From Rhodococcus tibetensis (lineage in GTDB: Bacteria; Actinomycetota; Actinomycetes; Mycobacteriales; Mycobacteriaceae), in the NCBI RefSeq assembly GCF_024438035.1, contig NZ_JANFQF010000020.1, positions 1 to 64,000 of the forward strand: a DNA stretch of 64,000 nt, in the 5' to 3' direction. Below are positions 49,263 through 63,322 of this stretch, piece by piece; position 1 is the first letter of the stretch; each line of letters starts with the position of its first letter. The notes under the pieces were generated by a model, which searched no databases, was not told the origin of the DNA, and worked only from the letters and a program-made list of their open reading frames with translations. The position numbers were made by a program, and so were the translations under genes.

Positions 49263-50012
49263 GTGAATCTCGACGGCCGGAGCATTCTCGTCACCGGGGC
49301 GGGGCGGGGTCTCGGCCTCGCCCTGGCCCGCCGGCTCGGCGAGGACGGCGCCACCCTGTGGCTCGCCGACATCCGCGAGGACTGGGGCGAGGACGCGGCG
49401 GCGAGCCTGCGCGCCGGCGGCGTCAAGGCACAGTTCGTCCGGGTCGATCTCCGCGACGCGGAGTCCGTCGACGCGATGGCGGCCACCGTCACCTCCGGTG
49501 GCCCGCTGTACGGCCTCGTCAACAACGCGGCCCTCGCGGACGGCGTGGGCGGCAAACCGATCCACGAACTCGACATCGACGAGTGGGACCGGGTGCTGGG
49601 CGTCAACCTGCGCGGCACCTTCCTCGTGAGCAGGGCGATCGTTCCCTCCATCATCGGGAACGGGGGCGGACGAGTCGTCACCATCGGCTCCGACGCCGCC
49701 CTGTACGGTTCGCCGCGTCTCGCGCACTACATCGCCTCCAAGGGCGGGGTGGCCGCGCTGACCCGCGCCATGTCCCGCGACCTCGGGCCGCACGGCATCA
49801 CCGTCAACACCGTCTCGCCCGGTCTGACCGAAAGCGAATCGGCGCAGAAGGTTCCGGAGCACCGGCACGAGCTGTACCGCCTGGGCCGTGCGCTCGAGCG
49901 GCCGCAGCAGCCGTCGGATCTCGTCGGCGCCGTCGCGTTCCTGATGGGTCCCGAGGCGTCGTACATCACCGGCCAGCAACTCGTCGTCAACGGCGGATTC
50001 GTCCTGCACTAG
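49263..50012 (+). CDS. SDR family oxidoreductase (classical)
   Basis: A 249-residue short-chain dehydrogenase. Cofactor site VTGAGRGLGLALARRLGEDG (about 10-29), Asp in LWLADIRED (NAD type), NNAA motif in LVNNAALADG, catalytic Tyr and Lys in HYIASKGG. The tail (SYITGQQLVVNGGFVLH) is standard for tetrameric FabG-like enzymes. The GTG start lies 2 bp after the cupin stop. It probably interconverts a hydroxyl and keto group of a pathway intermediate. Confidence 0.9.
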   Translation: MNLDGRSILVTGAGRGLGLALARRLGEDGATLWLADIREDWGEDAAASLRAGGVKAQFVRVDLRDAESVDAMAATVTSGGPLYGLVNNAALADGVGGKPIHELDIDEWDRVLGVNLRGTFLVSRAIVPSIIGNGGGRVVTIGSDAALYGSPRLAHYIASKGGVAALTRAMSRDLGPHGITVNTVSPGLTESESAQKVPEHRHELYRLGRALERPQQPSDLVGAVAFLMGPEASYITGQQLVVNGGFVLH

Positions 50013-50028
50013 AGAAGGGGACCACGTC

Positions 50029-50811
50029 GTGGACCTGCAACTGAAAGACCGCACCCACCTGGTGACCGGCGGAAGCTCGGGAGTCGGGCTCGCCACCGTC
50101 GCGATGCTGCTCGAGGAGGGTGCCAACGTCGTCACCTGCGCGCGCGACCGCGACCGGCTCGACTCCGTGATCGCGCCGCTGCCCGGCAGCAACCGCGTCC
50201 TCACCGCGTCCTGCGACGTCCGGGACCCCGCCGCGGTCGCCGCGCTGGTCGACGCCGGTGTCGCCCGATTCGGCGGCCTCGACGGTCTGGTCAACAACGC
50301 AGGCAAGTCCCGCATGGTCCCGCGCAGTGAGGCGACCCTCGACGACTGGCGCGACGAACTCGACCTCAAGTTCTCCAGCGTCCTCAACACCACCTCGGCC
50401 GCCCTGCCGCTGCTGCGCAAGTCCGACGCCGCGTCCATCGTCAACATCTCAGCGGTGCTCGCACGTCAGCCCGAGCCGCGACTGGTCACCACCAGCGCCG
50501 CCCGGGCCGGGCTGCTGAACCTCAGCAAGTCGCTGTCGCTCGAACTCGCCGCCGACGGCATCCGCGTCAACTCGGTGTCGCTCGGACTGGTCGACACCGG
50601 CCAGTGGCGGCGCCGCTACGAGGAATCCGGCACCGACGCCACATTCGCCGAATGGGAGGCGGAGATTGCCCAGGACCGCGGCATCGGCCTCGGCCGATTC
50701 GGCCGCGCCGACGAGGTGGCCGCCATGATCGTGACCCTGCTGTCCCCACGCTCGTCCTACGTGACGGGCACCAGCCTCGACGTCTGCGGAGGCGTCGCGC
50801 GCTATGTCTGA
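50029..50811 (+). CDS. SDR family protein lacking the catalytic Tyr/Lys
   Basis: A 260-residue SDR fold. The cofactor motif VTGGSSGVGLATVAMLLEEG and NNAG motif (LVNNAGKSR) are normal. Where Tyr-x-x-x-Lys is expected it reads RLVTTSAARAGLLNL: Tyr is Thr and Lys is Arg. Ser is present (NISAVLA). A branch of SDR proteins shows this TSAARAG signature, so it may catalyse with other residues or bind substrate only. The C-terminus has the normal SYVTGTSLDVCGG. AGAAGGGGACCACGTC precedes GTG 50029. It may pair with the classical SDR upstream. Confidence 0.85.
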   Translation: MDLQLKDRTHLVTGGSSGVGLATVAMLLEEGANVVTCARDRDRLDSVIAPLPGSNRVLTASCDVRDPAAVAALVDAGVARFGGLDGLVNNAGKSRMVPRSEATLDDWRDELDLKFSSVLNTTSAALPLLRKSDAASIVNISAVLARQPEPRLVTTSAARAGLLNLSKSLSLELAADGIRVNSVSLGLVDTGQWRRRYEESGTDATFAEWEAEIAQDRGIGLGRFGRADEVAAMIVTLLSPRSSYVTGTSLDVCGGVARYV

Positions 50812-50821
50812 GAGGAACACA

Positions 50822-52477
50822 ATGTCTGCAGGAAATGACAAGCAGGTGGGTAATGGGGGCGACCTGCTCGTCCAGGTGCTGCGCGAGGCCGGTGTCGACA
50901 CCGTCTTCGGCATCGTGAGCGTCCACAACCAGCCCCTGGTGCAGGCGGTCAGCAAGCACCTGCGGTTCGTGCCGGTCCGGCACGAGGCCACCGCGGTCAG
51001 CGCCGCCGACGGGTACGCCCGCGCCACCGGCGGACTCGGCTGCGCTCTCACGAGCACCGGCACCGGTGCCGGCAACGCGGCCGGTTCGCTGATCGAATCG
51101 CTCAGTGCCGGAACGTCGGTGCTGCACGTGACGGGCAACGTCGAGAGCCGCTACCTCGGCTCGGGTCGCGGCTTCATCCACGAGACCAAGGATCAGCTGG
51201 GGATGCTGACGGCGACGTCGAAGCATGCTGCCACCATCCTCGACACCGACAGTGCGGGAAAGACGTTGCGGGAGGCGGTTGCCCAGGCTCTGGCAACGCC
51301 CGGCGGTCCGGCGAGCATCGAGTGGCCGATCGACCTCCAGTACGCCGAGCACGAGATCGACGTGGTGGAGGCGGCGCAGGAGTCGCCGCGCACGCCGGAC
51401 GCCGACGAACTCGCTGCGGCACTGTCGTTGCTGGCAGCGGCCGAGCGCCCCGTCATCTGGGCCGGCGGCGGCGTCGCACGAGCCGGTGCCCAGCTGACCG
51501 AACTGGTCGAGCGGTGGGGTGTCCCGTTGCTCACCAGCAACTCCGGTCGTGGAGCCGTGCCCGAGGACCATCCGCTGTGCATCGGCAACTACGGCAATAC
51601 CCCCGCGGGGCGCGAGCTCCTCCGGGACGCCGACCTGCTGCTGTCGCTGGGTACGCACTTCCGGTCCAACGAGACCGGCGACTACTCCATGCCCGTTCCC
51701 GCCGTGCACGTCCAGGTCGATATCGACGCGGCCGCGCTCGGCCGCGTGTATCCCGCGCAGGCCGGGGTCACCGCCGACATCGCGACGTTCCTCCGGCAGC
51801 TGTCGGGCCTGGCTCCCGTCGACGCCGCCTGGACCGAACGTGCCCGCGCCACCCGCGAACTCGTCCGCAGCAAGCAGCGCGCCGGACTCGGTGATCACGC
51901 GGTGCTGTGCGATTCCGTGCGCGCGACGTTCCCGCAGGATTCGGTGATCGCCCGCGACGTCACCATCGCGTCGAGTTCCTGGGGCAACCGGCTGCTGCCG
52001 ATGTTCGACCCCAAGTCCAACGTCTTCCCCCGCGGCGGCGGCATCGGGCAGGGCCTGGGCATGGCCATCGGTTCCGCACTGGCCGACGAGACCCGGCCCA
52101 CCCTGGCCCTCGTCGGCGACGGCGGCCTGGCCGTCCACTTCGGCGAGATCCTGACCATGGCGCAGGAGAAGCCGTGGCTGGTGCTGCTCGTGTTCAACGA
52201 CGGCGGCTACGGCGTGCTGCGCAACATGCAGAAGGGCGGCGGCGAAGACACTTACGCCGTCGACCTCGTCACCCCCGACTTCCCGTTGCTGGCGCAGTCC
52301 ATCGGTGTGCCGTACCTGCGGATCGGAGGCGCAGACGAGGCCCACGACGTGCTCGCCGACGCGGTGTCGCGGCAGGCGCCGGTGATCGTCGAGGTCGATC
52401 TCGCCGCCTACGGCGAGATGCCGGCACCGTTCACGCCGCCCGTCGCGGTGCCCGGACAGAATGGAAATAAAAAATGA
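50822..52477 (+). CDS. ThDP-dependent decarboxylase/lyase, benzoylformate decarboxylase-like
   Basis: A 551-residue three-domain ThDP enzyme. ATG 50822 is preceded by GAGAGGA; another ATG at 50804 overlaps the SDR stop. The cofactor-activating Glu is in VPVRHEATAVSAADGYARAT. The ThDP/Mg site is LVGDGGLAVHFGE through FNDGGYGVLRN. The middle domain has RPVIWAGGGVARAG. Relatives include acetolactate synthase, benzoylformate decarboxylase and oxalyl-CoA lyase types. In a catabolic operon with an aldehyde dehydrogenase, decarboxylation of a 2-keto acid to an aldehyde is the likeliest job. It overlaps the flavin hydroxylase by 4 bp. Confidence 0.88.
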   Translation: MSAGNDKQVGNGGDLLVQVLREAGVDTVFGIVSVHNQPLVQAVSKHLRFVPVRHEATAVSAADGYARATGGLGCALTSTGTGAGNAAGSLIESLSAGTSVLHVTGNVESRYLGSGRGFIHETKDQLGMLTATSKHAATILDTDSAGKTLREAVAQALATPGGPASIEWPIDLQYAEHEIDVVEAAQESPRTPDADELAAALSLLAAAERPVIWAGGGVARAGAQLTELVERWGVPLLTSNSGRGAVPEDHPLCIGNYGNTPAGRELLRDADLLLSLGTHFRSNETGDYSMPVPAVHVQVDIDAAALGRVYPAQAGVTADIATFLRQLSGLAPVDAAWTERARATRELVRSKQRAGLGDHAVLCDSVRATFPQDSVIARDVTIASSSWGNRLLPMFDPKSNVFPRGGGIGQGLGMAIGSALADETRPTLALVGDGGLAVHFGEILTMAQEKPWLVLLVFNDGGYGVLRNMQKGGGEDTYAVDLVTPDFPLLAQSIGVPYLRIGGADEAHDVLADAVSRQAPVIVEVDLAAYGEMPAPFTPPVAVPGQNGNKK

Positions 52478-53592
52478 CCACGGTTGCGGTGTGCGGCGGC
52501 GGCATCGGGGGACTGACCACGGCCATCGCCCTTCGTGAACTCGGTCTCGATGTCACCGTCTACGAACAGACGAAACAGTTCGCGCGCGTCGGCGCCGACA
52601 TCAACCTCACCCCCAACGCGGTCCGGGCTCTCGACGGACTCGGCATCGGGCCGGCGATCCGCGAATCGGCTGCCCGGCCGCAGTTCCGGATCAGCCGCAC
52701 GTGGGACACGGGAGCCGAAACGTCCCGGCTGCCGATGGGCAACAGCGCGGAACAGCAGTACGGTGCACCGCAGTTGACCATGCACCGGGGCGACCTCATG
52801 ACCGCGCTCGAGAGCCGGCTGCCGTCGGGTGTCGTCGAAATGGGTCGCCGGATCAGCGGCGTCGCCGACGGCCGCATCGAGTTCACCGACGGCAGTGGGG
52901 TTTCCGCAGACGTGATCGTCGGTGCCGACGGGATCCACTCCGCGGTCCGGACGTCGTTGCTCGGCCGGGAACAGCCGACGTTCACCGGGGTCGTGGCGTT
53001 CCGCGCCGTCGTCCCCACCGAACGCGTTGGCAACCTGCCGAACCTCGACTGCTTCACCAAGTGGTGGGGGCCGAACCCGTCGACGCAGATCGTGACGTTC
53101 CCCCTCAATCAGGGCAAGGATATCTTCGTCTTCGCCACCTGCGCGCAGGAGGAGTGGACCGAGGAATCGTGGACCACACCCGGATCCGTCACCGAACTGC
53201 GTGAGCTGTACCGCGACTTCCACCCCGAGGCACGAGCCCTTCTCGACGCCTGCGAAGACGTCCTGAAATCCGCTCTCTACGTGCGCGACCCGCTGGCGTC
53301 GTGGACCGACGGACGGTCCGTGCTCCTCGGCGACGCCGCGCATCCGATGATGCCGTTCATGGCGCAGGGCGCCGGCATGGCCATCGAGGACGCCGTCGTC
53401 CTGTCCCGCTGCCTGAGCCTGTTCGACGAACCCGCGGTCGCGCTGCAGACCTACCAGGAGACACGACTGCAGCGGACCTCACACATCCAGCGGGGGTCCC
53501 GGTCCAACGAGTGGCTCAAGGTGGCAGGCAACGGCGACTGGGTGTACGAATACGACGCCTGGCACGTGCCGCTCGAGCTCGGCTCACAGTAG
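52474..53592 (+). CDS. FAD-dependent aromatic hydroxylase, salicylate/3-hydroxybenzoate type
   Basis: A 372-residue class A flavoprotein monooxygenase. FAD and NADH motifs in order are VCGGGIGGLTTAIALRELGL (about 5-24), the GD-like GADGIHSAVR (about 150-159) and LLGDAAHPMMPFMAQGAG (about 285-302). It hydroxylates an aromatic acid using NAD(P)H and O2, possibly with decarboxylation, giving a catechol- or gentisate-like ring. This would create the substrate for the extradiol enzyme that opens the same operon. ATG overlaps the ThDP gene stop. Confidence 0.9.
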   Translation: MTTVAVCGGGIGGLTTAIALRELGLDVTVYEQTKQFARVGADINLTPNAVRALDGLGIGPAIRESAARPQFRISRTWDTGAETSRLPMGNSAEQQYGAPQLTMHRGDLMTALESRLPSGVVEMGRRISGVADGRIEFTDGSGVSADVIVGADGIHSAVRTSLLGREQPTFTGVVAFRAVVPTERVGNLPNLDCFTKWWGPNPSTQIVTFPLNQGKDIFVFATCAQEEWTEESWTTPGSVTELRELYRDFHPEARALLDACEDVLKSALYVRDPLASWTDGRSVLLGDAAHPMMPFMAQGAGMAIEDAVVLSRCLSLFDEPAVALQTYQETRLQRTSHIQRGSRSNEWLKVAGNGDWVYEYDAWHVPLELGSQ

Positions 53593-53657: not shown

Positions 53658-54332
53658 TCATGAGTTCGGTGGGCCCCTCAGTCCGAGGGCGAACCGGACG
53701 ACACCGTCGGAGTCGCGGATCGGTAACCCGATGGTGCGAAAGTCGGGGGTCAACTCCTCGTCGTTGAAACCGTAGCCACGCTCACGGGTGCGGTTCAGCT
53801 CCTCTCGAATGCCGGCGACGTCAGTGATCGCGCGGGAGGTGGTGGCCGTCCGTGGTAGTGAAGCGAGCTCGGTGTCGTCCGCGTCCGACCACGCGAGGAA
53901 CACCTTGCCCAAGGCGCTTGCATGCAGCGGAAGCCGGACACCCTGCAGTACGTGTCCGTCGCTTTCCCGCCACCGGCTGAAACCCAGGAGCACGACCTCG
54001 TGACGGTGGCGCATGGCCAGTGAGGCGGACGCCCCCGTCGTGGCGGCCAGCTGTTCGAGATAGGGCTCCGATAGATAGATGCGATGCTGCCGGTAGGAAA
54101 TCTGGCCGTAGGCGGCCAGTGCACTCCCGAGCCGGTAGCGGCCCGACGTCGGATCCTTGTCGAGGAAGCCGGCGTCGACCAAGGACTGGAGGAGGCGATG
54201 AGTGGTGCTCACCGCGAGGTCCTGGCGCTTGGCGATCTCCGACACCCCAAGCTCATCGCCCCCGCCGAAACAGGAGAGCATCGTCAGGGCCCGCGTCACC
54301 GTCCGAACTCCGGCCGCACGTGAGTCGGTCAC
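53658..54332 (-). CDS. IclR family regulator with C-terminal frameshift
   Basis: A 224-residue regulator. GTG 54332 (TDSRAAGVRTVTRALTML) follows AAAGGA. The winged helix is SEIAKRQDLAVSTTHRLLQS (about 33-52). The effector domain begins near LSEPYLEQLAATTGASASLA and contains RLPLHASALGKVFLAW. It stops at GLRGPPNS. In the next frame the sequence continues as LMIDQRIPFFVDLARVAAGE to IAAVLL and a stop at 53584, which is the normal IclR end. A single missing C in the run near 53670-53677 explains it. It is divergent from the sulfur operon and next to the ring-cleavage operon. Loss of the last helix may affect dimerisation or ligand response. Confidence 0.85.
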   Translation of the reverse strand: MTDSRAAGVRTVTRALTMLSCFGGGDELGVSEIAKRQDLAVSTTHRLLQSLVDAGFLDKDPTSGRYRLGSALAAYGQISYRQHRIYLSEPYLEQLAATTGASASLAMRHRHEVVLLGFSRWRESDGHVLQGVRLPLHASALGKVFLAWSDADDTELASLPRTATTSRAITDVAGIREELNRTRERGYGFNDEELTPDFRTIGLPIRDSDGVVRFALGLRGPPNS

Positions 54333-54411
54333 GAAGGGTCCTTTCGTCGGGCGGTGCACGAGCCACACCGCCGGATGGAGGGACGGTTTCGTCCCCGGTA
54401 TCGGAACCATA

Positions 54412-54505
54412 CTTTCCGGCTGTCGGAAAGCTTCGGGCCCCGCGACTGCGAAATACGCTGCGCACGGCGGTGAACTGGGTTTCCGAAACTTGTCAAGGTT
54501 TCCGA
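54412..54505. promoter_or_regulatory. TTTCCG-type operator cluster between iclR and the sulfur operon
   Basis: CTTTCCG (54412-54418) and CGGAAAG (54424-54430) form a perfect 7 bp inverted repeat with a 5 bp spacer. GTTTCCGAAAC (54479-54489) is a palindrome, and GTTTCCGA recurs 19 bp later (54498-54505). This spacing and repetition fit an IclR-type operator read in both directions. The rest of 54333-54599 holds no gene. Confidence 0.6.
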
Positions 54506-54599
54506 TCTGTAGAAAACAAACAGGAGGAAATCGGACGCAGGGGACATAGCGTCAACGGTCGTCACACCTGACGATTCATCCGTTGAAGGAGTTCCCCAC

Positions 54600-55634
54600 A
54601 TGTCCCGCTTACGCCGACTGCCACGAGCCGCCGCAGCGCTCGCCATGATCCCGCTGGCCGGGTTGGCGGTGGCGTGTGGGACTTCCGAGGAATCCGGAGG
54701 AAACAGCGCAGGTGCCGACTTCACTCTCCAGGTCTTCGATCCGGGCAACTCGGGTGCCATCGCCGTCGGGAAACGCGACGGAACCTACGACGAGGCCCTC
54801 GCGCCGCTGGGCGCGAATATCGAATGGGTCAAGACCACACCGGGATTCAGCTCCAACCTCAAGCTTTTCAACACCGGCGAACTCGACATTCAGACCGGTG
54901 CGTACAGCCCGGTGGTCGGCGCGCTGTCCAAGGATGTCGGGGTGCGGATCTTCGCCACCTCGGACCCGTACAACAAGGATCAGGCAGGCATCATCGCCAG
55001 GCCCGAATCCGGGATCAAGACGGTCGCGGATCTCGCCGGAAAGCGGATCGCGGTGAATCCCGCCGGTAAGGGCGAGTACATCACCCTGAAGGCACTGACC
55101 CAGGCGGGCGTCCCCGTCGACTCCGTCGAGCGGGTGCCTTTGCAGCAGGCCGACGCCGCGTCGGCGTTCTCGACCGGCCAGGTCGACGCCTGGGCATCGT
55201 TCCTGGTCCCGTACCAGGAGGCGAAGGCGAAAGGCGCGGTCGAAATCGTCACCGAGGCGAGCATCGGCTCGGTGGACAGCACCATCATCGCAGGCCGTAC
55301 CGAGGTGCTCGAGGAGCATCCCGAGGTGGTGCAGAAGTTCCTCGAAGTGACACAACAGCTCACGGAGAAGCAGCGACAGGATCCTGCGTCGTTCGAGAAC
55401 GTCTTCGAGAAGACCGGCCCCAGGGCACTGTCGGGTCAGCGTCTCGACGACGCGATCGCTCTGGGCGGTCGGATCACCACCTTCCGCTATCCGACCACCG
55501 CCGACGCTGCCGACCTCGAATCGATCGCCGCGTTGTTCGCGGAGAACGGGGTGATTCAGCAGCCGCTGAAGGGCAGCGACGTCATCTTCGATCTCCCCGC
55601 CGCGCTCGATAACGCCTCGGCCGAGGGCAAGTGA
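54600..55634 (+). CDS. Sulfonate-type ABC binding lipoprotein (SsuA-like)
   Basis: A 344-residue extracytoplasmic binding protein of the NMT1/SsuA family. The signal ends in the lipobox GLAVACGTSEES (Cys about residue 25). The fold is recognisable from IKTVADLAGKRIAVNPAGKG and SAFSTGQVDAWASFLVPYQE. ATG 54600 follows GAAGGAG. Relatives capture alkanesulfonates, taurine or aromatic sulfonates. It leads an operon with permease, ATPase, a desulfinase-like protein and two monooxygenases, so an organosulfur ligand is well supported. Confidence 0.9.
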   Translation: MSRLRRLPRAAAALAMIPLAGLAVACGTSEESGGNSAGADFTLQVFDPGNSGAIAVGKRDGTYDEALAPLGANIEWVKTTPGFSSNLKLFNTGELDIQTGAYSPVVGALSKDVGVRIFATSDPYNKDQAGIIARPESGIKTVADLAGKRIAVNPAGKGEYITLKALTQAGVPVDSVERVPLQQADAASAFSTGQVDAWASFLVPYQEAKAKGAVEIVTEASIGSVDSTIIAGRTEVLEEHPEVVQKFLEVTQQLTEKQRQDPASFENVFEKTGPRALSGQRLDDAIALGGRITTFRYPTTADAADLESIAALFAENGVIQQPLKGSDVIFDLPAALDNASAEGK

Positions 55635-56491
55635 GTTCGGCGGTGATCCTGACGGAGCCTGCGCGCAGCGAGGCGCCGGCCGCCCTGGCATTGGAGACAC
55701 CCCGCTATCGCCGTATCCAGGAACGGCCCCGGTGGATCTCTGTTCCCCTGCGGTTCCTCGTCCCCGCACTGCTCGTGGCCGGGTGGTGGATCGGGTCTGC
55801 TACCGGCACGCTCAGCCCGGAGATCCTCGCCGGACCGCCCGCGGTGTGGCTGGCCTTCGCGGAGCTGTACGAGTCGGGCCAGCTACTCGACTTCGGTATC
55901 GCGTCGCTGCAACGCGCTGCACTGGGTGTGGGCTGCGGCGTCGTCATCGGGCTCGTGCTCGGCGTGCTGTCCGGACTCTCCGCGCTCGGTGAGGAGCTCA
56001 TCGACTCCACGATGCAGATCAACCGGGCGGTACCGTTCCTCGCGCTCGTTCCGCTGTTCATCGCGTGGTTCGGCATCGACGAGACGTTCAAGGTCGTCCT
56101 CATCACCGTGGCGACCCTTGCTCCGATGTACGCGTACACCTACCTCGGAGTGCGCGGCGTCGACCGCAAGATGGTCGAGGCCGCCCGCGGGTTCGGGCTC
56201 ACCGGCTGGCGGCTGGTGTTCGGCGCAATCCTGCCGACCGCACTGCCAGGAGTGCTGATGGGGTTGCGTATCTGCCTGTCTCTCAGTATCACCGGGCTCA
56301 TCGCCGCCGAACAAGTGGGAACCCGCGAAGGCATCGGGTACCTCGTCACCCTCGCGCAGGAATACAACCGCACCGACTACATGGTTCTGTGCATCGTGTT
56401 GTATGCGGTTCTCGGTTTGATCTTCGATGCCGTCGTCCGGGTGATCGAGAAGTTCGCGATGCCGTGGCGGCAACTGTCGGTGACCCGATGA
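55631..56491 (+). CDS. Sulfonate-type ABC permease (SsuC-like)
   Basis: A 286-residue inner-membrane protein with a 35-residue polar N-terminus and about six helices (RFLVPALLVAGWWIGSATGT; ALGVGCGVVIGLVLGVLSGL). The ATPase-coupling loop is KMVEAARGFGLTGWRLVFGA followed by ILPTALPGVLMGLR, the EAA motif of this family. The GTG overlaps the binding-protein stop by 4 bp. Confidence 0.92.
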   Translation: MSSAVILTEPARSEAPAALALETPRYRRIQERPRWISVPLRFLVPALLVAGWWIGSATGTLSPEILAGPPAVWLAFAELYESGQLLDFGIASLQRAALGVGCGVVIGLVLGVLSGLSALGEELIDSTMQINRAVPFLALVPLFIAWFGIDETFKVVLITVATLAPMYAYTYLGVRGVDRKMVEAARGFGLTGWRLVFGAILPTALPGVLMGLRICLSLSITGLIAAEQVGTREGIGYLVTLAQEYNRTDYMVLCIVLYAVLGLIFDAVVRVIEKFAMPWRQLSVTR

Positions 56492-57294
56492 ACACCACCG
56501 AGGCGCCGTTGCCGTCGCTCGCCGCCCGCGAACGCACCGCGACCACCGCAGCGGAACGACGAGCCGGGTCGCCCCTTGCCGTGTCGCTGAGGGGTGTGCG
56601 GAAGTCGTTCGGCGACAAAGGCGTACTCGCCGGGATCGACCTCGAGATCACCCGCGGTGAGTTCGTCGTCCTGCTCGGCCCGAGCGGCACCGGGAAGACG
56701 ACACTTCTGCGCCTGCTCTCGGGACTCGAGCCGCCGGACGGCGGTGACGTTCTGGTACCGCGGCAGCGCACGGTGGTGTACCAGGAACCGCGACTGATTC
56801 CGTCCAAGCGCGTGCTGTCGAATGTGTCAGTGGGACAACAACGATCGCGCGCCACTCGCGAGAATGCGAAGCGAGCGTTGACCGAGGTCAATCTCGCCGA
56901 CAAACAACGCGCGTGGCCCGCCACCCTGTCCGGCGGCGAAGCGCAACGCGTCGCACTCGCCCGGGCACTGGTCCGTGAGCCGGAACTGCTGCTGTTGGAC
57001 GAGCCCTTCGCCGCACTGGATGCGCTGACACGGTTGCAGATGCAGGACCTTGTCGGCGACCTGGTGGCCCGTCACCGGCCGGCCGTTCTGCTCGTCACCC
57101 ACGATGTGGACGAAGCGGTGCGACTGGCCGACCGGGTCCTGATACTCGACAACGGTGGCTTCGCGGTGGACGTAGACATCGACCTCCCGCGTCCACGAGA
57201 GCGGAACGATCCCGAGTCGCTCCGCTACCGCGCGACCTTCCTCGCCCAACTGGGAGTGGGACGCCATTCCCCACCAGATAAGGACAACTCATGA
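56488..57294 (+). CDS. Sulfonate-type ABC ATPase (SsuB-like)
   Basis: A 268-residue ATPase. Walker A is GPSGTGKTTLL (about 66-76), the Q-loop is VVYQEPRLIPSKRVLSNV, the signature is LSGGEAQRVALARAL and Walker B is LLLLDEPFAALD. The N-terminal 30 residues are a variable extension. ATGA overlap with the permease and with the next gene shows tight coupling of uptake to catabolism. Confidence 0.93.
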   Translation: MNTTEAPLPSLAARERTATTAAERRAGSPLAVSLRGVRKSFGDKGVLAGIDLEITRGEFVVLLGPSGTGKTTLLRLLSGLEPPDGGDVLVPRQRTVVYQEPRLIPSKRVLSNVSVGQQRSRATRENAKRALTEVNLADKQRAWPATLSGGEAQRVALARALVREPELLLLDEPFAALDALTRLQMQDLVGDLVARHRPAVLLVTHDVDEAVRLADRVLILDNGGFAVDVDIDLPRPRERNDPESLRYRATFLAQLGVGRHSPPDKDNS

Positions 57295-58334
57295 CTGTGA
57301 CGACCGGAAGTGCCCTCGCCACCCTCTGGTACACCCGCTGCCCGGTACCCACGGCGAGCGGTCTCGCGAACAACCTCGGCTGGCTGGGCCGGACGGCGAA
57401 AACCGCCGGAGTGGAATTCGGCGTCTTGCAAGACGCCGGTCCCGAACTGGCGGTGCGTCACTTCGATCATCAGCTGCCGGGGCTCATCCGGGAAGGCGGC
57501 AACGTGCCGGCCCTCGCTGCACGTGCCGAAGGTTCACCCACCCGGTTGATCGGTCTCACCTGGATCGACGAAGCGCAGGCGATCGTCGTGCGCCCGGGTT
57601 CCGAGGTCCGCGTGGCCTCCGGACTTGCCGGCCTGCGCTTCGGCATTCCCGCTTGGGCCGCCGACCGGGCACGGAGCTTCCCGCGCGCGATGGCACTTCA
57701 TGGCGTCGCCTCCGCGCTACGCCTGGGTGGCCTCTCGTTCGCGGACGTGCGACTCGTGGAGGTCGCGACGACGGCGGCCCCGCAGGTGCGGACCGCGAAT
57801 CCCGACCGCAATACCACCTGGGGCATCGAATCGCTGCTGGCGGGGGATGTCGATGCCGTGTACATCAAGGGCGCCCGCGCCCAGGAAGTTGCTCGGCAGC
57901 ATGGGCTGGTCGTTGCGGTCGACCTCGATTCCGCTGCCTCCCTCCGCGATCGGGTGAACAACGGGACCCCGCGTCCGGTCACTGTCCACGCCGACCTTCT
58001 CGAACAGCGCCCCGACATCGTGGTCGGGTTTCTCGCCGAGAGCCTGCGCGCCGCGAACTGGGCGGCGGCGAACGTGGACCGGGTACGTGCCGTCTTCGAA
58101 GCGGAGACGCAGTCCGGGCCGGAAGGCGTTGTCGCGGCGTACGGCGAGAACTTCCACAAAGGTCTGCACCTGAACCTGTCCGAGGAGCGGGTCGACCTTC
58201 TCGGTGTGCAGAAACAGTTCTTGTACGCCCACGGCTTCCTCGCCCGGGATTTCGACCTCGAATCCTGGGTGGCGCGCGAACCCCTCGAGCAGGCCAAGGC
58301 ACAGCTCGCCGCGGAGAAGGAGCCCACGACGTGA
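57291..58334 (+). CDS. DszB-like desulfinase
   Basis: A 347-residue cytosolic protein of the periplasmic-binding-protein fold without a signal peptide. It aligns with 2-(2'-hydroxyphenyl)benzenesulfinate desulfinase DszB: Cys17 in YTRCPVPTASG (DszB Cys27), His57 in VRHFDHQLPG (His60) and Arg67 in IREGGNVPAL (Arg70 in RFGGEIPPL). The His-to-Arg spacing of 10 is the same. Such enzymes release sulfite from an aryl sulfinate. It is coupled by 4 bp overlaps to the importer and to two flavin monooxygenases that could make the sulfinate from a sulfone or sulfonate. Substrate is unlikely to be dibenzothiophene itself, since no DszC homologue is adjacent. Confidence 0.82.
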   Translation: MTVTTGSALATLWYTRCPVPTASGLANNLGWLGRTAKTAGVEFGVLQDAGPELAVRHFDHQLPGLIREGGNVPALAARAEGSPTRLIGLTWIDEAQAIVVRPGSEVRVASGLAGLRFGIPAWAADRARSFPRAMALHGVASALRLGGLSFADVRLVEVATTAAPQVRTANPDRNTTWGIESLLAGDVDAVYIKGARAQEVARQHGLVVAVDLDSAASLRDRVNNGTPRPVTVHADLLEQRPDIVVGFLAESLRAANWAAANVDRVRAVFEAETQSGPEGVVAAYGENFHKGLHLNLSEERVDLLGVQKQFLYAHGFLARDFDLESWVAREPLEQAKAQLAAEKEPTT

Positions 58335-59431
58335 CGGACTTCTACTGGGAGTTACCGTCCCGCGGTGACGGGCGCCGGGCCGCATCCGAGCTGAACACTC
58401 GCGGCGGATTCGGGGCCGATCGTCCGGCGACGGTCGCCACCGACCTGCGTCCAGGCAAGCTCGGCCCCTTCGACGAACTCGCCCAGGTGATCCACGCCGC
58501 GGAACTGTCCGGTGTCGACGCAGTGATCGCGCCCTACGACCCGTCGGGTGAAGAATCCTGGGTGGTGGCCGCGGCGGCACTGCGGCAGACCCGGCACGCG
58601 CGGGTCGCGGTCGAATTCCACTCCGCGTTCGGCACTCCGGTGTACGCGGCGAAGATGTCCGCGACCCTGCAGAGGCTTTCCGGTGGACGGCTCGAGTGGC
58701 GACTGAAGGTCGAGACCGACCCGGCCGACGCCCGCGCCCGCGGCGACTGGGTGACCGGTCGTGACCGTTACGCGCGTGCGGACGAGTTCCTGACCGTGGC
58801 TCGCGGTGTGTGGAACGACAGCGAGGTTCTTCCGGGCGGATTCGGTGGCACCGGATACGAGTTCGCCGGAAACCACTACGACGTGATCGACGGCGGATTC
58901 CGCGGCATCCTCTCCGGGCTTCCCTTCCCCGTCGTGCACCTCACCGGGAATTCGGACGAGGCTGTGACGTTGTCTGCCAAGCACGGTGACGTCCACCAAT
59001 TCGTGCTGACCGACGCCGGGTACGAGTCGTCCGCGCGCACCCTGGCCGACCATGCACTCGAGCATGGTAGGTCGGTGCGAAAGCTGTTGCGGCTGCCGAT
59101 CATCGCGCGTGAGACGACGGACGAGGCGTGGGCGCGCGTCGAACGGCTGTGGCGGGAGGTGCACCCGGACGGTGTGAGCGGCGACAGCCGCGCTCTCGCA
59201 CGCGAGAACGCCCGGTGGTCGGGGTTCGACCGCCTCGGCTACGACCAGAGCATCGGCCTGATCGGCAGCTATGAGGACGTGGCCCGCGAGTTGTCGTCGT
59301 TCCGGCATATCGACGGTTTCGTCCTCACCGGCCGACCACACATCGAAGAGCTTCACCGGGCGGGCGAACACCTGCTCCATCTCGTCGACCCCGCCGGACG
59401 CACCCTCGCCGGTCAGGAGGCACACACATGA
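58331..59431 (+). CDS. FMNH2-dependent luciferase-like monooxygenase (SsuD-related), first copy
   Basis: A 366-residue TIM-barrel of the bacterial-luciferase superfamily. Features of the SsuD branch are the N-terminal strand TDFYWELPSRGDG, LSGVDAVIAPYDPSGEESWV, the FMN-site region LQRLSGGRLEWRLKVETDP and DRYARADEFLTVARGVWNDS, with the late IGLIGSYEDVAREL. It would oxidise a C-S compound with O2 and reduced flavin supplied by a separate reductase, none being in this operon. It is less typical than the second copy. GTG overlaps the desulfinase stop. Confidence 0.87.
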   Translation: MTDFYWELPSRGDGRRAASELNTRGGFGADRPATVATDLRPGKLGPFDELAQVIHAAELSGVDAVIAPYDPSGEESWVVAAAALRQTRHARVAVEFHSAFGTPVYAAKMSATLQRLSGGRLEWRLKVETDPADARARGDWVTGRDRYARADEFLTVARGVWNDSEVLPGGFGGTGYEFAGNHYDVIDGGFRGILSGLPFPVVHLTGNSDEAVTLSAKHGDVHQFVLTDAGYESSARTLADHALEHGRSVRKLLRLPIIARETTDEAWARVERLWREVHPDGVSGDSRALARENARWSGFDRLGYDQSIGLIGSYEDVARELSSFRHIDGFVLTGRPHIEELHRAGEHLLHLVDPAGRTLAGQEAHT

Positions 59432-60582
59432 GTATCGATTTCTACTGGCGCATCGGCATGGAGGGCGATCACGCGTCGCTGCGAACACCCCGGCGCTACA
59501 ACCGCGGTGATGCGGGCGGCCACGGTCCCGGCAACATCGCCCCCGCGATCCGGAACGGCGAACTCGACGGCTACGGGTACATCGACCACATGGCCGCCGT
59601 GGCGAAGGCGTCCGAGTCGGCCGGCTTTCTCGGCGGTCTCCTGCCGTCGTTCCCCATGACGGAAGATCCGTGGGCCACCGCGGCCGCGCTGGCCGCCGAG
59701 ACCACCACGTACCGGTTCATGGTCGCCTTCCAGCCCGGTTTCCTCCACCCCGTGCAGGCGGCGAGAATGTCGGCGAGCCTGCAGCGCGCCACCGGTGGGC
59801 GACTGGTCTACAACATCATCAGCGGCGGCGGCGGGGCCCCGCAGCTGTGGTGGGGCGACAAGGTCGATCACGATGACCGCTACGCACGGACCTCGGAGTT
59901 CCTCGACGTGCTCCGCGGCGTGTGGGACGGCCGTCCGTTCGACTTCGACGGCCGCTTCTTCCACACGGAAGGTGCTGCCCTTCCGCCAGGCCTCGCCGGC
60001 CAGCAGTTCCCCGAGGTGTTCTTCTCCGGCTCGTCGGGAGCCGCAGTGGCCGCCGCGGGACTGCACGCGGACTACTACCTCTCCTGGCTCGAGCCGTACG
60101 CCGACCTGCGGGCCAAGTTCGACGGGGTGCGTGAGCATTCCGCGAAGCTCGGCCGCACGCCGAAATTCGCGGTGCGGATCGACGTCGTCGCTCGTCACAC
60201 CGAGGAGGCCGCCTGGGCCGAGATCGAGAAGGGCTGGGCTTTCGTCGACAAGGGTGCCGCCGACCGTGCAGCACAGGGTGATTCCGTCGGTGCGGCCCGT
60301 ATCAGGGGGTGGGTGCCCGAACACATCACCGGTTACCGCGACCTCGAGGTCCAGCCGAACGTGTGGTGCGGGTTCAGCCTCATCCGCGGCGGCCCGGCGT
60401 TCGGCCTGGTCGGCAGCTACGAGCAGGTCGCAGAACGTCTCGACGAACTGCGTGAACTCGGCGTGGACGCCTTCATCCTGGCCGGTAATCCCCACCTCGA
60501 GGAGGCATACCGCGTCGGTGAGGAAGTTCTTCCCCTCCTGCAGCGCCAACCACTTCCTACTTCCGGACAGGACACACCATGA
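59428..60582 (+). CDS. Alkanesulfonate monooxygenase-like (SsuD) enzyme, second copy
   Basis: A 384-residue luciferase-fold monooxygenase, close to SsuD length. Motifs are MSIDFYWRIGMEGDH, ESAGFLGGLLPSFPMTEDPW, FMVAFQPGFLHPVQAARMSA, ATGGRLVYNIISGGGG and DRYARTSEFLDVLRGVWDGR, with GLVGSYEQVAERLDELRELG near the end. It cleaves the C-S bond of sulfonates or oxidises sulfones using FMNH2. Two related copies in tandem suggest successive oxidations or two chain types. It overlaps both neighbours by 4 bp. Confidence 0.9.
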   Translation: MSIDFYWRIGMEGDHASLRTPRRYNRGDAGGHGPGNIAPAIRNGELDGYGYIDHMAAVAKASESAGFLGGLLPSFPMTEDPWATAAALAAETTTYRFMVAFQPGFLHPVQAARMSASLQRATGGRLVYNIISGGGGAPQLWWGDKVDHDDRYARTSEFLDVLRGVWDGRPFDFDGRFFHTEGAALPPGLAGQQFPEVFFSGSSGAAVAAAGLHADYYLSWLEPYADLRAKFDGVREHSAKLGRTPKFAVRIDVVARHTEEAAWAEIEKGWAFVDKGAADRAAQGDSVGAARIRGWVPEHITGYRDLEVQPNVWCGFSLIRGGPAFGLVGSYEQVAERLDELRELGVDAFILAGNPHLEEAYRVGEEVLPLLQRQPLPTSGQDTP

Positions 60583-61286
60583 CTACAACCGAGAACCGCG
60601 TGAATCCCGATGTCGCCACGTTCGTGGAGGCCGCGCGCCGGGACGCCGACAAGGCCTTCGGAGTGTTCCGGCGCACCGGGACCGTATCGGCCAACGGCAC
60701 CGTCAACTTCGTCGAACGGGTGCCGGGCACCGAGATCGCAATCGCGCTGAACGATCCCGGCCCGTGGGCGGATGATCCGCAGGTGTCGCCGGTCGTGGCG
60801 ACCTTCGACGGTGAGGTGTTGTCGGGTAACGGTTCCGCCGGATTCGTCACCGGTTACGCCGCCGTGTTCCGGCAGCATCCGGAGATCACCAGCGTCGTCC
60901 ACATCCACACGCCGTGGCTCGGCGGCTGGGCGCAAACCCACCGCACCCTGCCGATTCGATACGCGGCGTCACAGCGACTGACGCTGTCGCGGGAAATTCC
61001 GCCACACATCGACCGTTCGCAATCGGCCGGCGACTTCATCCTCGAACGCCTCCGGGACGACCCGGACCTCGTTGCAATCTTCGAGGCCAACGGCGGCGTC
61101 AACGTGATCGGCCGCAGCGGCCTGCTCGATCTCGCGAAGTTCGTCGTTCTCCTCGAGGAAGGAGCCCAATTCCAGGCCATCGCCGAATCCCTGGGAGGGT
61201 CGGTCGAATTCGACACCTCGAACCTCGCCGTGCAGTGGGGACGCTCGGGCCTCGCCGACGAGGCGCGCCGACGCGGCCTCCTCTGA
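60579..61286 (+). CDS. Class II aldolase/adducin family protein
   Basis: A 235-residue zinc-dependent fold. The metal-binding histidines are visible in VVHIHTPWLGGWAQ; the N-terminal part NGTVNFVERVPGTEIAIALN resembles the phosphate-binding region, and GNGSAGFVTGYAAVFRQHPE precedes the metal site. Members split aldols (fuculose-phosphate type), epimerise or decarboxylate. Here it may act on the carbon skeleton left after desulfurisation. The start overlaps the monooxygenase stop. Confidence 0.85.
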   Translation: MTTTENRVNPDVATFVEAARRDADKAFGVFRRTGTVSANGTVNFVERVPGTEIAIALNDPGPWADDPQVSPVVATFDGEVLSGNGSAGFVTGYAAVFRQHPEITSVVHIHTPWLGGWAQTHRTLPIRYAASQRLTLSREIPPHIDRSQSAGDFILERLRDDPDLVAIFEANGGVNVIGRSGLLDLAKFVVLLEEGAQFQAIAESLGGSVEFDTSNLAVQWGRSGLADEARRRGLL

Positions 61287-61329
61287 TTTCCTCACCCTCC
61301 TCTTCAACCGAACAGAACAGGTAACGGTC

Positions 61330-62271
61330 ATGACAGTCCGTGTCGGATACTTCCCACACAACAACTCGCTCTTCGTGCTGCGGCACACCGGAATCCTCGA
61401 GCGTCGGCTGCCCGACGTCGAATGGGTGGATCTGCGTGAACTGCCGTCGAAGCCGCCCGTCGATCCAACGAACGCCCTTCCTACCCTGCATTCCGACTGG
61501 CTGTTCGAGGACGGCGGATACGACGTCATCGGCACCGGCTTCACCCCGCCGATCACCGGCTTGGCGCACGACCGCGATCTCGTCTACATCGGCATCTCCG
61601 GCCCCCGCGTCGAGAACGGCCGTCTGGTCGTGAAGGCGGAGTCGGGCATCGAGTCCGTCGAGGATCTTCGCGGTAAGCGTGTCGGCATTGCGCACGGGTC
61701 GTGGCAGACGACGCTGCTCCTGTTCGCGCTCGACCGGGCAGGACTCACCTGGTCCGACATCGTGCCCGTCGACACCGACGTGCGCGCAGGCGGCGCCGAA
61801 CTCGTCAGCGGAACCATCGACGCGTGGGTCGGCGCATACCCGGGGCTGGCGGATGTCGAAGCCGATCACGAACTGCGGACGCTCGTCGAGACGGATGGGC
61901 TCTTCAGCCATCCCTCGCTGTGGTTCACCCGCCGCGACTTCGCGGAGAGCAACTCCGCACAGTTGCGTGCCGTCGTCGAGGCGCTGCAGGAGTCCGACGC
62001 GTGGATCGAGACACACCCGCGCGAAGCGGCACAGTTCTTCGTCGACGACGTCGAGCGGCGCGGCGGCACCGCAAGTCTCGACGCCTGGGAGGCGGCGCTG
62101 CGCGGACGGCCCTTCGGCATCAACCCGGTCACCGAGCAGTTCCTGGACGAACAGCAACGCGCCGCCGACCTGTTGCTCGCGAATGGACTGCTTCCGCGGT
62201 CGATCCGGATCCGCGACGCTGTGGTCTCCGAGATCGGGGAGTTCGTCGCCGCCGATCGCGCCGCCGTGTAG
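61330..62271 (+). CDS. Cytosolic binding-protein-like partner of the sulfur operon
   Basis: A 313-residue NMT1/SsuA-like fold without any signal peptide: it starts MTVRVGYFPHNNSLFVLRHT. The core motif is IESVEDLRGKRVGIAHGSWQ, followed by GAELVSGTIDAWVGAYPGLA. It is related in fold to the DszB-like protein at 57291, but no Cys is found at the corresponding N-terminal place (YFPHNN instead of a Y-x-x-C-P-V-P motif), so it is not expected to be a cysteine desulfinase. Possible roles are a substrate chaperone, a divergent hydrolase or a binding protein whose signal was lost. ATG 61330 lies 43 bp after the aldolase. Confidence 0.8.
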   Translation: MTVRVGYFPHNNSLFVLRHTGILERRLPDVEWVDLRELPSKPPVDPTNALPTLHSDWLFEDGGYDVIGTGFTPPITGLAHDRDLVYIGISGPRVENGRLVVKAESGIESVEDLRGKRVGIAHGSWQTTLLLFALDRAGLTWSDIVPVDTDVRAGGAELVSGTIDAWVGAYPGLADVEADHELRTLVETDGLFSHPSLWFTRRDFAESNSAQLRAVVEALQESDAWIETHPREAAQFFVDDVERRGGTASLDAWEAALRGRPFGINPVTEQFLDEQQRAADLLLANGLLPRSIRIRDAVVSEIGEFVAADRAAV

Positions 62272-62311: not shown

Positions 62312-63322
62312 TCATCGGCTCGGGAGTGATCGCGGCAGCCCGAAGGATGGGAGCACGCTGCTGTCGAAGCGGGTGAAGGCGCAGATCCGTTCGACGGTCA
62401 GGGTGAGGACGAACAGGCCGGAACCATGCCGGATGCCGGTCGGGGCGCGCAGGTAGGCGCCGAACGCCGGCTGACCGTTCGCTCGGGTCGGAACGAGGTC
62501 GACTCTCCTGCCCGAGCCGAAGATGCCGGCGAACAGGCGAATGGCGGCGTCACGGCCCTGGTATTCGAAGGGAATCGGTGGCATCGAGATGAAGACATCG
62601 TCGGTGAGCAAGGCGACCAGCGCGTCAGGATCCCCGGACTCGTAGGCACGGACGAACTCGGCCACGAGCGCTTGCTCGGACGCCGAATTCGGGCCGGGAG
62701 CCGGTTCGCGCTCCTCACTCTGCGACCGATGGCGTTTCAGCCCGGCGCGGGCTCGTTTGAGGGCGCTGGTAACCGAGTCCACGGTCGAGTCGAGCATGTC
62801 GGCCACCTCGATCGCGCGGAACCCGAGGACGTCGCGCAGGATGAGCACGGCGAGCTGGCGCGGTGGCAGGAGCTGAAGGGCGGTCACGAAGGCCAGGGAG
62901 AGGGATTCGCTCTGCTCGACGCGGGCCTCCGGTCCGAGCGGTACCCCGACTGCCCCCTCGAGCACGGAATCGGGAAAGGGCTCGAGCCAGGGCACTTCGC
63001 CGAACCCGGTCGGCTCGGGTGGTTCGACCCCGGGCATGTCCCACTCCCTGCGGAGACGTCGGCCGGCCGAGCGACGCGCATTGAGGCAGCGGTTGGTGGC
63101 GATCCGATAGAGCCAGGTGCGAAGGGCGGCGCGTCCCTCGTACCCTCCGATGCCTTGCCAGGCGGCCAGCAAGGTGTCCTGGGCGGCGTCCTCGGCGTCG
63201 TGAAACGATCCGAGCATCCGGTAGCAGTGCACCAGCAGTTCCCGGTGGTGCGGCTCGGTCAGCTCTCGGAACGCGTCGCCGTCCCCCGCCCGGGCCCGGG
63301 AGAGCAGGTCGCCTGCTACCAC
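62312..63322 (-). CDS. ECF sigma factor with C-terminal SnoaL-like domain
   Basis: A 336-residue extracytoplasmic-function sigma factor. Region 2 (about 8-80) contains MLGSFHDAEDAAQDTLLAAW and RTWLYRIATNRCLNARRS. Region 4 (about 135-195) contains LQLLPPRQLAVLILRDVLGF and the helix-turn-helix MLDSTVDSVTSALKRARAGL. From about 210 on is a SnoaL/NTF2-like domain (VAEFVRAYESGDPDALVALL). Such sigma factors are usually controlled by their own tail rather than a separate anti-sigma, and none is adjacent. GTG 63322 has GGAAGGA about 12 bases upstream. The divergent neighbour is a RibD/DHFR-like gene. Confidence 0.9.
   Translation of the reverse strand: MVAGDLLSRARAGDGDAFRELTEPHHRELLVHCYRMLGSFHDAEDAAQDTLLAAWQGIGGYEGRAALRTWLYRIATNRCLNARRSAGRRLRREWDMPGVEPPEPTGFGEVPWLEPFPDSVLEGAVGVPLGPEARVEQSESLSLAFVTALQLLPPRQLAVLILRDVLGFRAIEVADMLDSTVDSVTSALKRARAGLKRHRSQSEEREPAPGPNSASEQALVAEFVRAYESGDPDALVALLTDDVFISMPPIPFEYQGRDAAIRLFAGIFGSGRRVDLVPTRANGQPAFGAYLRAPTGIRHGSGLFVLTLTVERICAFTRFDSSVLPSFGLPRSLPSR

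Follow-up and report, generated by a model that had tools for sequence, protein, structure and literature searches.

A DszB-like desulfinase in a Rhodococcus operon of known type that probably scavenges sulfur by way of a sulfinate

The stretch of DNA analysed here, referred to as the window, comprises 64,000 nucleotides of the soil bacterium Rhodococcus tibetensis (positions 1 to 64,000 of contig NZ_JANFQF010000020.1). It carries an eight-gene operon at 54600-62271, with the genes and limits that a sequence-only reading had assigned to it, and the product of the fourth gene, which we call DszBL, is related to the desulfinase DszB. We propose that this is probably a sulfur-starvation operon, in which an organosulfur anion is imported by an SsuABC-type transporter and its sulfur is released as sulfite via a sulfinate. 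The substrate-binding protein SBP1, the permease and the ATPase would import the compound. LLM2, one of two luciferase-type proteins in the operon, would use reduced flavin mononucleotide (FMNH2), supplied by a reductase encoded elsewhere, to oxidise the compound and open its C-S bond to give a sulfinate; LLM1 may pair with LLM2 as a degenerate partner. DszBL would then strip off the sulfinate group as SO2 or sulfite, with C17 either donating a proton or acting as nucleophile, T15 and H57 supporting it as a pair, and R67 and G70 at the sulfinate. For Rhodococcus tibetensis, we infer a sulfinate intermediate and, in place of benzothiophene, a polar or charged natural substrate.

DszBL (57291..58334, + strand) has 347 residues and is the single match to itself in a genome of 5.8 Mb and 63 contigs. 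It has no Pfam family at E ≤ 0.001, and its sole match in NCBIfam is SsuA_fam, at 51.1 bits with a cut-off of 163.5. In a sequence search of the PDB allowing E values up to 0.1, DszB chains were the only matches, the best at E 3.6e-18. An AlphaFold2 model (pLDDT 88.1, pTM 0.88, from a 32-row alignment) leads to the same protein: DszB structure 2de3 is the top match (Z 33.0 over 313 residues, 2.5 Å), 2de2 scores Z 32.4, and sulfonate-binding SsuA structures rank after DszB (Z 25.6 for 3uif, then 24.5). Foldseek likewise places DszB chains first. Thus, both sequence and structure match DszB better than they match binding proteins.

The sequence-only reading had suggested a phylogeny as a check, and the tree groups DszBL with DszB and not among plain NMT1 binding proteins. 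In this tree of 52 rows, the 38 DszB and DszB-like rows are split from the 14 binding-protein rows with a support of 100/99 and in 200/200 bootstrap trees, and the four DszBs form a branch of their own; one of the four is identified as DszB by its annotation (L088) and the other three by motif, and the tree tool flags a risk of long-branch effects. One entry has a peculiar label, since the tool assigns L002 to Cyanobacteriota and its contig record is Rhodococcus sp. IEGM 1379. The kinship of DszBL with DszB is real. We also considered DszBL as a plain binding protein, and rejected this because of the tree, the fold and the conservation of the active site.

That active site had been recognised from the sequence alone, where Cys17, His57 and Arg67 were matched to catalytic residues of DszB. 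The alignment agrees to the exact position: C17, H57, R67, G70 and T15 of DszBL align with C27, H60, R70, G73 and S25 of DszB. Conservation was counted in 104 rows, namely the window protein, one DszB and 102 relatives; of 111 matches, 3 below 60 bits, 4 duplicates and the copy from the window itself had been set aside. C17 is present in 103 rows, H57 and T15 in 102 each, and R67 and G70 in all 104. In the 14 binding-protein rows, Cys is never found at position 17, nor Arg at 67. Given that C17, H57, R67 and G70 are near-invariant, the predicted match of active sites is, as judged from the alignment, beyond chance. According to the available sections of PMC6100217, the DszB mechanism involves C27 as proton donor, the H60-S25 dyad, R70 and the RXGG motif. 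Two rows deviate in the Cys/His/Arg set, which reads C, D, R in a row from a Sphingobium plasmid and S, I, R in another from a Burkholderia plasmid. At L082 (7842-9017) and L091 (5240-6967), DszB-like rows that lack His57, or both Cys17 and His57, adjoin paralogues that keep these residues, and it is possible that the altered copies are degenerate partners.

Low Cys and Met content is a known property of sulfur-scavenging proteins (PMC7661421, as far as its available text goes), and seven of the eight operon proteins are poor in both. Leaving out the start Met, the Cys/Met counts are 1/1 in SBP1, 3/6 in the permease, 0/1 in the ATPase, 1/1 in DszBL, 0/1 in LLM1, 1/5 in LLM2, 0/0 in the aldolase-like protein and 0/0 in the second substrate-binding protein, SBP2. 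The lone Cys of DszBL is the catalytic C17. Across the related loci, the median Cys plus Met content is 0.6% in DszBL, 0.59% in SBP1, 0.83% in the ATPase, 1.08% in LLM2 and zero in LLM1, the aldolase-like protein and SBP2; in 568 flanking genes it is 2.14%. The matched DszBL region contains exactly one Cys in 79 of the 80 fetched loci and six in the remaining one. In the aligned rows with the longer cut (n = 87), one Cys is found in 70, two in 12, three in 4 and eight in 1, with Cys at position 17 in 87/87. Under pressure to shed Cys, DszBL retains its catalytic one.

The fetched loci are the best 80 of at least 457 confirmed relatives. The six-gene core, from SBP1 through permease, ATPase, DszBL and LLM1 to LLM2, occurs in this order in 77/80 loci, and the full order of eight genes in 57. 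The core is followed directly by SBP2 in 12/80 and by an IclR gene before SBP2 in 6/80, and a divergent IclR gene lies within 700 bp in 53 of the loci. The distribution of the operon is patchy. Counted by genome, DszBL relatives are found in 10/28 of the genus, in 48/301 of the family (a count that takes in weak and partial matches), in 14/59 of Gordonia (five of them strong, at 66-67% identity) and in 5/396 of a phylum sample, where two matches are strong, one in the genome of the window itself and the other at 50%. The family and phylum scans scored 5 to 7 candidates per genome, and weak relatives may be missed there.

A DszBL relative occurs in 92 of the 72,556 records of a plasmid collection, and the identity is 38 to 50% in the 40 of these 92 that are listed; a named gene is given in 14 of those 40 rows, and in 13 of them the public annotation reads “ABC transporter substrate-binding protein”. 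Nearly all of the fetched plasmid proteins, rhizobial and other, carry TRCPVP-type and RxGG motifs as DszBL does. Unlike the window operon, however, several of their genes adjoin genes for LLM or acyl-CoA dehydrogenase-type proteins, or both, together with peptide-type transporters. Rhizobial and Paracoccus plasmids are represented by L083, L086, L089 and L090, with a dsz-like trio in L083 and peptide-type transporters in some of them. A metagenome-assembled genome (MAG) of Eremiobacterota (L078) has two DszB-like genes from different clades as well as several LLM genes.

The genes around DszBL are tightly coupled. The 4-bp overlaps that the sequence-only reading described from the binding protein to the aldolase are present at 6/6 junctions, and SBP2 starts 43 bp past the aldolase stop. 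The SsuABC importer of that reading is borne out as well, in that an SsuA-like lipoprotein, a permease and an ATPase are encoded together, all three scoring below the curated NCBIfam cut-offs. SBP1 (54600..55634, +) matches NMT1 above the cut-off and SsuA_fam under it; its N-terminus is hydrophobic, and its sole Cys, C26, is the lipobox Cys. The SsuC-like permease (55631..56491, +; GTG start, 4-bp overlap) matches BPD_transp_1, its best NCBIfam match being SsuC at 202.8 bits (cut-off 347). The SsuB-like ATPase (56488..57294, +; 4-bp overlap) matches ABC_tran, with an aliphatic sulfonate ATPase as best NCBIfam match at 237.9 bits (cut-off 395).

What do the two luciferase-type proteins contribute? 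LLM2 (59428..60582, +; 4-bp overlap) belongs to the SsuD group of FMNH2-dependent monooxygenases, and its TIGR03565 score of 267.8 bits is about half of the curated cut-off of 518.2. We take C54, W196, R226, H228, R297 and Y331 to be the residue set of E. coli SsuD, their positions having been checked on the alignment. LLM2 retains W196, R226 and R297 in 80, 80 and 78 of 81 rows; C54 is replaced by Thr in 80/81, H228 by Asp in 77/81 and Y331 by Asn in 63/81. Its FMN-phosphate residues, numbered as in MsuD (available sections of PMC8234197), are complete. LLM1 (58331..59431, +; GTG start, 4-bp overlap) is a diverged member of Bac_luciferase. Of the six SsuD residues, the window protein keeps just one, the Arg at the R226 position, and that position is Arg in 16/81 rows of an alignment that is partly uncertain. 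At the position of the FMN-phosphate His (MsuD H123), LLM1 has Gly in 69/81 rows and His in 2/81, and at the S177 position Ser occurs in just 3/81; R146, Y147 and S208 are kept in 78, 77 and 72 of the 81. LLM1 evolves faster than LLM2, since its relatives average 60% identity to the window protein and those of LLM2 83%. The sequence-only reading had called both proteins SsuD-type oxygenases. For LLM2 this stands in part: the protein is fairly close to SsuD, but it has lost three of the six SsuD residues and is not the best SsuD match of its genome, which lies on another contig and scores 438.3 bits. For LLM1, in which most of the SsuD residues are gone and the FMN-phosphate site is partly lost, the assignment fails, and a true SsuD pair was accordingly rejected. 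Flavin reductase families match at 10 places elsewhere in the genome, and these could be the source of FMNH2 for the operon. In luciferase itself, LuxB beside LuxA is a precedent for a degenerate partner, and it is our guess, by analogy, that LLM1 might stand to LLM2 as LuxB does to LuxA. The best SsuD match belongs to another sulfur cluster, on contig C16 at ~94000-104041, which also has an SfnB-family match above the cut-off with two weaker matches to that family alongside.

In class II aldolases, the three zinc His are those of HxH plus the His of NHG. The class II aldolase-like protein (60579..61286, +; Aldolase_II) has H108 and H110 in 62/62 rows, and G172, giving NGG in place of NHG, also in 62/62; we therefore rejected it as a canonical class II aldolase, the third zinc His being Gly. 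SBP2 (61330..62271, +) is SsuA-like, at 139.1 bits to SsuA_fam (cut-off 163.5), and its N-terminus has no hydrophobic stretch and no signal peptide. By eye, 12 of 13 relatives have an SBP2-like start with no evident signal peptide, and the thirteenth is a distant binding protein with a signal peptide, from an Eremiobacterota MAG. SBP2 has no Cys and no internal Met, and in most loci its gene comes after that of either the aldolase or LLM2; it is possibly a second case in which the binding-protein fold has been co-opted for the cytosol.

An operon of this kind has been described in Gordonia terrae C-6. According to the available sections of PMC3868597, bdsABC (KC831580) encodes a desulfinase, an FMNH2 monooxygenase and an alkanesulfonate monooxygenase. 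Table 1 of that paper gives, by locus tag (GTC6_01585-01620), a binding protein, a permease, an ATPase, bdsABC, a hypothetical protein and a binding protein, and these genes were induced 92 to 188-fold on benzothiophene versus sulfate by RNA-seq. Extracts of E. coli with bdsABC, supplied with DszD, NADH and FMN, converted benzothiophene to o-hydroxystyrene. The window operon is not a novelty: one with the same annotated gene order appeared in print in 2013, and the IGTS8 protein already carries the annotation “Dibenzothiophene desulfurization enzyme B”. The DszB-like desulfinase and the sulfinate route put forward in the sequence-only reading find support in the sequence, the fold, the tree, the conservation of the active site and the published data on this operon of the same order.

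It could be supposed, from this work, that the operon is dedicated to benzothiophene, with LLM1 and LLM2 making the sulfone and opening the ring, and the desulfinase giving o-hydroxystyrene. The annotated order is the same, and the extract experiment yielded just this product (PMC3868597, available sections). However, a neutral thiophene should, on our reasoning, need no ABC importer, yet importer genes are present in 77/80 loci; the hydrophobic clamp of DszB is gone from DszBL and charged residues are near-invariant. In addition, the same source names IGTS8, which has the operon by annotation, as one of several strains apparently incapable of desulfurising benzothiophene, and this strain therefore fits badly with benzothiophene as natural substrate. 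We regard a dedicated benzothiophene operon as unlikely. Far less probable still is direct cleavage of a sulfonate by the LLM proteins in the manner of SsuD, in which case DszBL would be a binding protein of the cytosol that lacks desulfinase activity. The fold of DszBL is that of a binding protein, its one NCBIfam match is the SsuA_fam hit below the cut-off, and LLM2 retains W196, R226 and R297 of SsuD. Nevertheless, the Cys/His/Arg set is near-invariant in DszBL, with Cys17 and Arg67 absent from the 14 binding-protein rows; DszBL, poor in Cys, has kept C17 as its sole one; and LLM2 has Thr, Asp and Asn for C54, H228 and Y331 in a genome whose better SsuD match scores 438.3 versus 267.8 bits.

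A variant compatible with import followed by sulfite release via a sulfinate is that LLM1 and LLM2 are independent oxygenases working in series, one for sulfoxidation and one for the C-S cleavage that follows. This we find quite plausible, if somewhat short of an even chance. In C-6, bdsB was given a DszC-like role and bdsC a DszA-like one (PMC3868597, available sections), and LLM1 keeps R146, Y147 and S208 in most rows. On the other hand, Gly stands at the FMN-phosphate His position of LLM1 and Ser is rare at the S177 position, the protein evolves faster, and DszC is annotated as acyl-CoA dehydrogenase-type, not luciferase-type.

Returning to the sulfur-starvation operon with a sulfinate intermediate, a number of observations weigh against it. 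The identity of DszBL to DszB is about 30%. DszB L152 and W155 sit in a stretch that is missing from DszBL, DszB F203 aligns with Asp172 in a variable column (F61 is retained as F58), and Y63 and Q65 are His and Leu in DszBL. R16, K193, R221, N223 and R228 of DszBL are present in 102 or more of 103 rows and not in DszB, and H60 of DszBL is near-invariant; the near-invariant Arg of the family stands at the position of DszB N26. With the biphenyl pocket F61/W155/F203 incomplete and the hydrophobic clamp gone, DszBL was rejected as a DszB proper that acts on 2'-hydroxybiphenyl-2-sulfinate. Because the hydrophobic pocket of DszB is lost and the charged residues are near-invariant, the substrate of DszBL is probably polar or charged, on the assumption that these charged residues face the pocket. 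Furthermore, since a structural role had been assumed for R70 of DszB and the H60Q change lowered activity only ~17-fold (available sections of PMC6100217), the conservation of R67 and H57 is weaker evidence for catalysis than that of C17. The 80 loci are related, so that the counts over them are not independent, and neither are the tests behind the small p values for Cys and Met content; the permease, with a median Cys plus Met of 2.96%, is not low. Among the 75 loci in which the core reaches SBP2, 18 have no detected aldolase in the gap between LLM2 and SBP2; the aldolase-like protein is therefore not needed.

The published work carries limits of its own in this respect. The bdsABC assay comes from a single paper and a crude extract with no intermediate identified, as far as the available sections of PMC3868597 go, and the IGTS8 observation cited above belongs here too. 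Induction on benzothiophene or dibenzothiophene (DBT) may simply be sulfate starvation. The likeness of the window operon and of Gordonia loci L059-L062 to bdsABC and its flanks is one of annotated order, resting on order and annotation. The bdsABC primers sit at variable gene ends: in eight loci the best forward site has at least 7 mismatches and the best reverse site at least 5; across 59 Gordonia genomes, the forward primer (≤3 mismatches) has one 3-mismatch match (L110), among unrelated genes, and the reverse primer, which also lies at a variable gene end, has no site at ≤2 mismatches. Among the locus termini that were printed, none of the gene ends looked like the primers by eye.

The divergent promoter region (54411..54599) lies between SBP1 and the gene for an IclR-family regulator (53658..54410, - strand; Pfam IclR_C and HTH_IclR above the cut-off), which is transcribed away from the operon. 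It contains GTCAAGGTTTCCG at 54492-54504, a one-base variant of which, GTCAAGCTTTC, is present in 26/54 upstream regions. The 11-bp palindrome GTTTCCGAAAC at 54479-54489 was rejected as an operator, being present in 1/54 upstream regions, that of the window, and we claim no operator. Beside the IclR gene ends a tight, catabolic-looking run of genes at 49263-53592, with two short-chain dehydrogenase/reductases (SDRs), a thiamine diphosphate (ThDP) enzyme and a flavin adenine dinucleotide (FAD) monooxygenase. As parts of the system these genes were rejected, for the matches listed across the 80 loci are only scattered SDR ones at 28-35% identity, and the run is not listed as a unit next to the operon in relatives. 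At the other end, a gene for an extracytoplasmic function (ECF)-type sigma factor with a C-terminal SnoaL-like domain (62312-63322) converges on the operon end.

It is tempting to go further and propose a large DszB-like clade acting on a charged, imported organosulfur substrate, with LLM1 and LLM2 as a degenerate and an active partner and the thiophene desulfurisation of DszB as a side branch, a tentative idea that we hold to be more doubtful than not. If it were true, the substrate might be, for example, a soil compound that gives rise to an aryl or alkenyl sulfinate bearing a hydroxyl or carboxyl group, and the proteins labelled “ABC transporter substrate-binding protein” in databases would be a widespread soil family of sulfur-scavenging enzymes. 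In the open-licence literature of PubMed Central, we found no paper on the natural substrate of the operon. The available parts of PMC7661421, PMC11852219 and PMC9861168 do not name the window operon, and PMC11852219 recounts bdsABC. What the present analysis adds is that a clade annotated as ABC transporter substrate-binding proteins is now placed with the desulfinases and given a candidate active site, which narrows the question to what the natural substrate is. The analysis also casts doubt on benzothiophene as the physiological substrate of bdsABC-type operons.

How, then, does the window operon compare with known systems? Membership in the dszABC (4S) operon was rejected, since the partners of DszBL are LLM proteins nearer SsuD, not DszA (NtaA/DmoA) and DszC (acyl-CoA dehydrogenase type); against TIGR03860 the two score 90.1 and 46.8 bits, with a cut-off of 279.7. 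With SsuD/MsuD (1M41, 7JV3), LLM2 shares the FMN-phosphate residues, W196, R226 and R297, and differs at C54, H228 and Y331. The closest likeness is to the two published operons. By annotation and order, a desulfinase, an FMNH2 monooxygenase and an SsuD-like protein lie inside an SsuABC-type operon, as in C-6, and DszBL, LLM1 and LLM2 are the probable counterparts of BdsA, BdsB and BdsC. In IGTS8 (Rhodococcus qingshengii), the available sections of PMC8557817 give peg4799 as SsuA, 4801 as SsuB, 4802 as “Dibenzothiophene desulfurization enzyme B”, 4804 as SsuD and 4806 as SsuA, all more abundant in DBT culture. This spacing is as expected for the window operon; the likeness is one of annotation, and peg4800, 4803 and 4805 fall outside the table of significant proteins in those sections. 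In another strain of that species, R. qingshengii IEGM 1359, the full gene order is present and the DszB-like protein is 83% identical to DszBL. The operon is thus not new; it is a further example of the published bdsABC/IGTS8 kind, matched to it by annotation.

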